Part shown: piece after piece, positions 43,601 through 46,600 of the stretch
How positions within the stretch are numbered: position 1 is the stretch's first letter
Layout of the letters: each line of letters begins with the position of its first letter
Source of the DNA: Epinephelus fuscoguttatus
Taxonomy: Eukaryota; Chordata; Actinopteri; Perciformes; Serranidae
Assembly: GCF_011397635.1 (NCBI RefSeq)
Contig: NC_064759.1
Location: 15,458,428 to 15,522,427 of the forward strand
DNA length: 64,000 nt
Direction: 5' to 3'
Notes under the pieces: generated by a model
What the model saw: the letters and a program-made list of their open reading frames with translations, nothing else
Told to the model about the DNA's origin: nothing
The model's database searches: none
Program-made: the position numbers and the translations under genes

Positions 43601-46600
43601 CAATAGCGTTGGCCAAGCATGCCAATTTATGCTTAAAATTGGTGAAGAGAAAGTGGGAACCCTGTGACTGTTGTCCTCTCCCATCTGTCTCTCCCCGCCC
43701 AGCCCACGCCCTCCCCTCCCTGTTCCTCTTGTGTCTTTGTTTTGGCTCGCCCCCTCGCACCTCGTCTGTGTTTGTGTCTCACTGTATTAATAGTGTGATG
43801 GCAATGTCTGGCATGTGTATTAACAGTGACCTCCCATATCCCTGTCTCCCTCTTTCCCTGCTCCCTCTATCTCCACCTCCCCTCTGCTTTCTCATTCATC
43901 CCCACTTGTCTGTGACCCTTAACCTCAGAATGGCACCCATAACCAGGACCTGTTGGTGTGTGCGTGTGCTGTGGGAGTGGCCACCTGTTTCGCTGCCCCC
44001 GTGGGAGGCAAGTCCCCCGCCAAGGCCTCGCTCAGGCACAGGTCTCCAGTCTCCGGTCAGCTTTATCCTCCTGAAATAACATCAGCAACACAACTGTGGA
44101 GGTTAAATCTGACCTCAGACCAGTACCCTGTGTTATTATGATGAATACAACTGAATGAATATTCAAACATGTGGATCAACCTGTCAGTAATACTGTAGAT
44201 GGGCCAGGGATTGTAAGGGTCTGTCTACTTTAAAGGAATAGTTCAGCATTTTGGGAGATACACTTACGACAAGATCCACACAGCTGGAGCCTATCCCAGC
44301 TGACATTGGGCGAGAGGCAGAGTACACCCTGGACAGGTCACCAGACTATCGCAGGGCATGTTGAGTATTATAATTCCACAAAATTTGGTTTAGTTGTTAT
44401 TACCTGACACGCTTAGGCCTCCATACTTAATATGTGGAACATCTGATACTTAGTTTCTGTACCCCTACATTAACTTTTTGGGGTACCTCACCTATAGGGA
44501 TGTCTCCTACTTTGGCTCTCCCCTTTTGCTGTTGTGCTCCGTGGGAGAGGAATAAATGGAGATCGCCTCCTAGGATATCCACAGGGCATCTTTATATCTA
44601 CACGCAAACATCACTAGAGTTCACCGGTTACATACAGACCCTACACGGTAGCCTAGGCACGTGGCCTACACCTTTGTGAGCATTTATACTTGTGAGGTGG
44701 TGAGTCTGTGACACCTCCAAAACACTAGTCGGCGATGGCGTGTTTGTAAAGTGCTGTAAAGTTTGGTTGATTCAAATCACACCCAAAACACACACTAAAC
44801 ATCGCTTAATACAGTTTCTAACACAAATACACAAATCAGCTTCATTATAACAGTATAGCAGTGTTCACAGATAAAGCATGTGTCTTTTGCTGGACACATT
44901 TTCCCCACAAATACAACATGCTAACGTTATTAGTGCAAGTCGGCATTTTACATTGTATAAATTAGCCTACTGATGAGCAGAGATTTCCTCTTCTCATATA
45001 AAACCAGAACAACAGCAACATTTAACAAAGGTAACGTTACAAGATCTGGCTTCATTACAACTCACAAAGTTCACTAACAAAACAACTGTCAGATACTAAA
45101 CATGTTTTCCAAACAAGTACAACATGCTAACGTTATTAGCACAAGCCTATGGCATTTTACATTGTATAAATTAACCTAGCAGCTAGTGAACTTCTCCTTC
45201 TCTCATATAAAACCAGGGACAACAGCAACATTTATAACGTGACAGAATTCAGCTCCATTATAGCTTAAGTTCACTGACAAAACAACTGTCTTATGCTAAA
45301 CACATTTTCCAAACAAGTACAACATGCTAACGTTATTAGCACAATTGTATAGATTAGCCTAGCGACGAGCTGAGATTTCCTCTGCTCATATGAATCCTGA
45401 AGTATAAATCGCTGAAGGATAAATCACACACAAGACTTAAATGCTATTTTTGTTGGAGGCCTTATTGTCTTCACAATTTATTGTTTCTTATCTGTGAAAT
45501 TAAAGTAAATCAACTTTCATCAAGCTACGGTGTAAGGTACGACGTAGGCTCTAAGCCGACTCAGAGCCTACATCATAGGTACGCCGTTGATTGGACGCAG
45601 AAGTATAAATCCCGTATTATTTGAGAAAGGAAAACAAATTCCTGTATTTCCCAAAATGTCAAACTATTCCCTTGAAACTGACCTCAGACCAGTGTCTGGC
45701 ATCGGCAGTTGTGAATTCAAAGTGAATGAATACTTGTGCAGATTAACTTGCAACACATGAGCCTTGAATTATACGGTTCCTTCTGCTATCAGGCCTTTTC
45801 TGCATCACAGCCCTTTTTTTTTTAATAAATCAAAGATATAAAGAATAAATTCTTAATATATTCATAATAAGCTCCCCGGCTCAAATTGTGATTTAGTCAA
45901 GTTTTACTGTATAGAATCATATAATTCAAGGTCATAAATGAATGGAAACATTTCGTGTCTGCTACGTTTCATTTTCAGTTTGCAATCAGTTGCAGGAATT
46001 TGTCTCAAAGGATGATGTGACCACTCAGTTTGTTTCCTGATTGCCTCCTCTAACTCTGATTACTCTCTTTGGCATGTGCGTCTTCTTCTTTATATTCTCC
46101 TGATGTGTTTTTTCCTCCTTATTTATTACTTTTATAAACCACACTCCAGTGAGCATTATTTATTCACTTTATTCCATTTTGCTTTCCCTCTGTCAATTCT
46201 CCCCCCGTGGTTCCCCCGTCCTGTCCTCTCCACCTTGATCTTTTATTCTCTCTTTATCCAACTCACTCTCCTGTCTTTCTGTCTACGCTCTCGTTCCTCG
46301 TCACCTTCATTTTCCCCCTTCATCATCTCACGCCTTTCATCCCTCATTGTCACTCTCAACTCTTTATTTCCCTCTTGTTTTTTTCCCTCTCTGTTTTCTG
46401 TGTCAGTAGAACCCTTATGGTTACACAGATATTCTGACTGTTGGCTGTGCCGTGGGGGTGGGATGCTGTTTCGGCACTCCTCTAGGAGGTACTGTACAAC
46501 TTGCACACGGCCTCATACAACCAAAACTACTGCACCAAACATCCCCCTGTACTGGATCAATACTATACCAGCTGAGATGAGTCAGAAGCACAGGGTGTCG

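Follow-up and report, generated by a model that had tools for sequence, protein, structure and literature searches.

The clcn1 gene of Epinephelus fuscoguttatus carries two adjacent homologous exons, 7a and 7, and exon 7a is very probably an ancient coding exon corresponding to exon 7a of mouse Clcn1, which is well known for its mis-splicing in myotonic dystrophy, a cause of stiffness in models of the disease, and is targeted with antisense in mice (PMC10082032). We consider it rather likely, judging from the sequence, that the pair is an ancient set of mutually exclusive exons and that 7a still substitutes for exon 7 in this fish. According to this proposal, 7a and 7 would be the halves of an old tandem exon duplication within clcn1, predating the split between ray-finned fishes and tetrapods, and in this fish they would offer alternative in-frame versions of the segment bearing helix G. 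Exon 7 would supply a ClC-1 segment that includes C277, the cysteine of the slow gate, and exon 7a a segment similar to ClC-2 and ClC-K with Thr, by which common (slow) gating would be altered and probably weakened. The mouse counterpart would have kept its splice sites and length and decayed in its coding, becoming a poison exon admitted upon loss of MBNL.

The window, that is, the whole stretch of 64 kb that was analysed, belongs to a genome of 1.05 Gb in 26 contigs and carries the clcn1 gene on the forward strand. Using a human ClC-1 protein sequence as the tblastn query, segments resembling residues 101 to 903 were found in order from approximately 38681 to 60106, exon 7a being recovered at E 0.004; the first approximately 100 residues gave no match in the window with this query. 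It is a fair guess that this copy is intact, exons 6 to 11 having been joined and checked. The features of the twin-exon region are detailed in Table 1.

Table 1. Features of the twin-exon region of clcn1 (positions within the window).
Feature	Position	Strand	Characteristics
clcn1 exon 6	41328..41405	+	78 nt; shared upstream exon
Exon 7a	43929..44007	+	79 nt; Thr where human ClC-1 has C277
Exon 7a 5' splice site, GC type	44008..44013	+	GCAAGT; six bases identical to those after mouse exon 7a
Exon 7 acceptor, tandem CAG-TAG	46404..46409	+	splicing at the upstream CAG would insert an in-frame UAG
Exon 7	46410..46488	+	79 nt; identity to human ClC-1 23/26; C277 kept
Exon 8	48751..48876	+	126 nt; in frame after 7 or 7a; contains both premature stops

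Both twin exons are preceded by AG acceptors and run from phase 0 to phase 1; positions, lengths, acceptors and phases agree with those reported in a first-pass annotation of this DNA. As neighbouring homologues that match in length and phase, they have the layout of mutually exclusive tandem exons. The same residue is encoded at 12 of the 26 complete codons; the 13 claimed previously are reached only if the Gly codon that spans the junction is counted. The donor of exon 7 is GT, and that of exon 7a is of the GC type, the exon ending in AG before GCAAGT. When the mouse 7a peptide was scanned over every position of the window, on both strands, it scored higher against exon 7 (64) than against exon 7a (59), and the next place reached only 25; the resemblance of exon 7a is therefore not a chance similarity.

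The joins 6-7-8-9-10-11 and 6-7a-8-9-10-11 were each open for 185 codons. On the other hand, the join 6-7a-7-8 stopped at 48767 and the join 6-8, with neither twin, at 48793. Since 79 is not a multiple of three, only transcripts with exactly one twin stay open (verified through exon 11), and the earlier claim that either twin joins exon 8 in frame and that both together shift the frame was borne out. Transcripts with both or neither of the exons would meet a stop in exon 8 and be expected to undergo nonsense-mediated decay (NMD), and reading frame and decay together could enforce the exclusivity of the pair. A crowded, too short intron was ruled out as the cause of exclusivity, as 2402 nt separate the two exons. 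GC donors are common at weak, regulated exons, and the donor of exon 7a probably holds this exon weak and regulated. Because both exons measure 79 nt, exchange of 7 for 7a should yield an RT-PCR band of the same size as the normal one and would be hidden from size-based assays.

Several other features of the region were observed. The tandem CAG-TAG acceptor before exon 7 is present in both clcn1 copies of this genome, in the window and on C17 (reverse strand). The upstream CAG is usually favoured in acceptors of this kind, and its use at exon 7 would place an in-frame UAG immediately after exon 6. Two probable DNA transposons, whose terminal inverted repeats match (AAAGG[CT]ATACTATGCAGGA), are located in intron 6 (41986-43089) and downstream of exon 7 (46871-48292). 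Jointly they create inverted repeats flanking both twin exons (70 nt at 83% and 39 nt at 85%) that could base-pair with each other within the pre-mRNA. Additionally, the intron between 7a and 7 contains direct repeats (44861-45401), with three 78-nt copies spaced by approximately 200 nt and identities of 73% and 92% to the reference copy.

For the comparison with mammals, mouse was the single species used. A mouse Clcn1 RNA probe sequence spanning exon 7a is printed in PMC5964235; the start of the exon was set by the antisense oligonucleotide of PMC10082032, and its length by the 345- and 424-bp products given there. The mouse exon so delimited is 79 nt long and open, encodes the peptide TVPGQLDLLVPACAVGVGCYFAAPDG and is followed by GCAAGT. 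It lies in the same intron as fish 7a and has the same length, as the first-pass annotation had stated for mammals; the frame is also the same, and both exons share the peculiarity of a GC donor. The alignment suggested there for human exon 7a, carried out here with mouse, gave identities of 15/26 amino acids and 46/79 nucleotides. Ungapped identity between the fish and mouse introns was 42/124 upstream of the exon and 27/111 downstream, beyond the donor. The differences between the two exons were distributed by codon position as 6/9/18 (binomial p 0.0097).

When fish and mouse 7a were compared, dN/dS by the NG86 and YN00 methods was undefined or saturated, and a neutral simulation was therefore used in their place, in which one exon was mutated to the observed nucleotide identity with equal rates among sites and half of the changes as transitions. 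Amino acid identity under neutrality averaged 8.0 to 8.1, and no run out of 20,000 attained 15 in either direction. This indicates that coding constraint has acted somewhere on the path between fish and mouse 7a, without pointing to a particular branch. The result of the same simulation against the two fish clcn2-like exons was weaker, above all for mouse 7a: the probability of reaching the observed amino acid identity was 0.013 and 0.089 for mouse 7a, and 0.0099 and 0.0002 for fish 7a.

The first-pass annotation had proposed that mammalian exon 7a descends from a functional mutually exclusive exon and that this fish may still make two ClC-1 channels. The part that is supported is the descent: mouse 7a very probably derives from the same coding exon as fish 7a, given its position, length, open frame, ClC-2-like peptide and GC donor and the evidence against a copy made only in fish; production of both channels in the fish is a prediction.

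The age of the duplication was approached with a tree of ten 26-residue segments, in which the clcnk-like row begins with X in place of a TAG that precedes its exon. Support was 100/100 for a group of the three clcn1 exon 7s, and both 7a exons fell outside it. Fish 7a was placed closest to the rows of ClC-2 and ClC-K; mouse 7a formed a long branch, whose position 26 columns were too few to fix. The groups for the clade tests were defined only after inspection of the first tree, and the p-AU values, based on these 26 columns only, should be read accordingly. Placing fish 7a inside the fish exon 7s, as a fish-only duplication would require, gave a p-AU of 0.0025, and placing mouse 7a with human exon 7 alone gave 0.020. 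The clade of fish and mouse 7a was absent from the free tree and yet was not rejected (p-AU 0.18), nor was a clade of all clcn1 exons (p-AU 0.20). A duplication confined to the fish lineage is thus disfavoured.

The same data bear on whether fish and mammalian 7a could be of separate descent, either through independent duplications of exon 7 or through uptake of a clcn2-type exon. Besides their separation in the free tree, the nucleotide identities would suit such an origin: fish 7a is identical to the clcn2-like exon of C5 at 52/78 nucleotides, and for mouse 7a the values against the two clcn2-like exons of the fish are 50/78 and 53/78, compared with 45/78 between fish and mouse 7a. At the protein level, the identity of fish 7a to human ClC-2 (15/26) equals that to mouse 7a. 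At codons 8, 10, 12, 22 and 23 the two 7a exons agree with each other against all three clcn1 exon 7s in the comparison, and most of these shared codons are also those of ClC-2 (12, 22 and 23) or ClC-K (10), which again would be compatible with separate origins; Leu at codon 8 is the sole residue private to the pair among the peptides compared. Nevertheless, a recent duplication of exon 7 is disfavoured in fish as well as in mouse by the values given above, and Asp at codon 7 is present in both 7a exons and in clcn1 exon 7, unlike in the clcn2-like/ClC-2 and ClC-K rows. This pattern would fit a duplication within clcn1 after which exon 7 departed further than 7a from a ClC-2-like state, an order of events that we infer. 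The shared intron, length and GC donor carry the case for a single origin, and we regard separate descent as very improbable.

The distribution of related loci in the genome was also determined. With a 94-residue query corresponding to exons 6-7-8, 18 matches were obtained at E values up to 10 and were given names by similarity: the window gene, a putative second clcn1 (C17), two clcn2-like loci (C5 and C15), a clcnk-like locus (C7) and weak CLC-like places. The search for twins covered one strand each of the regions on C17, C5, C15, C7:14.28 Mb and C23:18.66 Mb, with the weak matches C7:0.23 Mb, C23:14.44 Mb, C24 and C18 outside it. No twin 7/7a pair was found in these five regions on the strand scanned; the next-best scores were at most 33, and the two highest of them (29 and 33) belonged to places that lacked splice sites or contained a stop. 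The exon 7a peptide gave at least four matches against the genome at E up to 10, namely itself (4.4e-12), the clcn2-like loci (9.4e-4 and 1.3e-3) and the clcnk-like locus (0.196), and the second clcn1 copy of C17 was absent among the matches listed for it (window, C5, C15 and C7). The C17 copy is compact in this region, with an intron 6 of 120 nt lacking exon 7a. Only the window copy of the two clcn1 copies has the twin exon.

From the absence of 7a in the C17 copy it could be argued that 7a is an unspliced relic in this fish, retained by chance. This is very improbable, as the exon has retained its acceptor, its extended donor consensus, its exact length, an open frame and a peptide compatible with the family, and the flanking intron, in ungapped comparison, shows little similarity to mouse.

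Concerning the encoded segment, the best PDB match of 6-7-8 was ClC-1 (184.5 bits; ClC-2, 157.5) and that of 6-7a-8 was ClC-2 (158.2 bits; ClC-1, 152.8), in agreement with the previous description of one exon as ClC-1-like and the other as ClC-2-like. Against the Pfam Voltage_CLC model, 6-7-8 scored 65.3 bits and 6-7a-8 scored 67.6 bits; with mouse 7a in the fish context the score was 50.0, 15.3 to 17.6 bits under the two fish forms. Given this fit of the 7a segment to the family, the 6-7a-8 product is likely to fold as a channel and to differ in slow gating. Within the exon, codon 19 corresponds to C277 of human ClC-1, and fish 7a has Ala at 276 preceding the Thr at 277. A solved ClC-K chain has the AVGVAT-FAAP pattern, as fish 7a, with Thr at the C277 position. 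Exon 7a starts with an N-G-T sequon (43929-43937), and ClC-2 has N-E-S at that place.

C277 of ClC-1, C212 of ClC-0 and C258 of ClC-2 are described as critical for slow common gating, and this cysteine is missing in ClC-K (PMC4188032). The mutation C277Y reduces opening of the slow gate (PMC4410605, PMC4188032). The residue is assigned to helix G in PMC10604815 but to helix H in a table of PMC4410605. The slow gate could change in either direction: Ser at this position opens the gate, Tyr closes it and Thr resembles Ser. If the proposal is correct, the 7a form would constitute a naturally occurring equivalent, generated by splicing, of the C277 slow-gate mutants.

Mouse 7a has Cys at 277, Tyr at 278 and Asp at 283. 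Judging from these two last residues and the drop in the Pfam score, the mouse exon appears to be decaying as a coding segment. Inclusion of 7a in mouse leads to a frameshift and a stop in exon 7 (PMC10082032); the exon is described as cryptic and frameshift-inducing in PMC12458930, where the long-read account treats the inclusion isoforms as candidates for NMD, and the 6-7a-8 swap form is unmentioned in the long-read section of that paper. MBNL1 blocks CLCN1 exon 7A at the 3' splice site (PMC4176163). Counts of the MBNL motif YGCY were not enriched around fish 7a (7 seen, 5.95 expected from shuffles) or around mouse 7a (11 seen, 9.80 expected); since the mouse exon, known to be regulated, shows no excess either, this count is uninformative on MBNL control.

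It could be considered that exon 7a already acts as a poison exon in this fish, included beside exon 7 so that NMD shuts down clcn1 mRNA in some cells, its open frame being a matter of inheritance or slow decay. The behaviour of mouse 7a (PMC10082032, PMC12458930), the stop at 48767 in the join of both exons and the GC donor common to fish and mouse would all accord with this alternative, which we take seriously and judge unlikely. A poison exon needs no CLC-compatible peptide, yet the 6-7a-8 join is stop-free and fits the Pfam model at least as well as 6-7-8 (67.6 vs 65.3 bits), its differences to mouse are skewed to third positions, and mouse 7a, a known poison exon, scores 15.3 to 17.6 bits lower. 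Beyond what the first-pass annotation had recognized, the analysis brought to light the GC donor, the replacement of Cys277 by Thr, the lack of 7a in the second clcn1 copy and an apparent coding decay in mouse.

Taken together, the data suggest that the supposedly cryptic exon of myotonic dystrophy is an ancient working part that would alter channel gating. A broader reading, offered tentatively and with some doubt, is that a single gene gave early bony vertebrates two chloride channels of muscle through exchange of helix G, a state that may persist in this fish; the 7a version would lack C277 and bear the residue of ClC-K instead, splicing would thereby switch the common gate, and the myotonia exon would be the decayed mammalian remnant of this switch. 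An old alternative coding exon would explain why so hazardous an exon persists in mammals and still has good splice sites. Such an origin would be testable with RNA-seq from fishes.

Tandem-duplicated alternative exons are a known kind, and the clcn1 7a/7 pair and its link with myotonic dystrophy were not found described in the open literature searched: a term look-up in the main texts of two surveys of duplicated exons (PMC9741552, PMC5740500) gave no CLCN gene, and among the titles and abstract openings listed by the searches of openly licensed papers none connects exon 7a with exon 7 through duplication. The pair resembles the tandem mutually exclusive exons treated in those surveys in being adjacent, homologous and equal in length and phase, and in changing one structural segment, but differs in that one copy seems to have turned into a disease-related poison exon in another lineage. 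With mammalian exon 7a, as represented by the mouse sequence (PMC5964235), it shares gene, intron, length, open frame, GCAAGT donor and ClC-2-like peptide, whereas the mouse form is termed frameshift-inducing and "cryptic" (PMC12458930) and fish 7a could replace exon 7. Finally, with the helix G segment of ClC-2 and ClC-K, fish 7a has in common the FAAP motif (both) and A-T instead of G-C at 276-277 (ClC-K), although it lies in a ClC-1-like gene whose neighbouring exons best match ClC-1.
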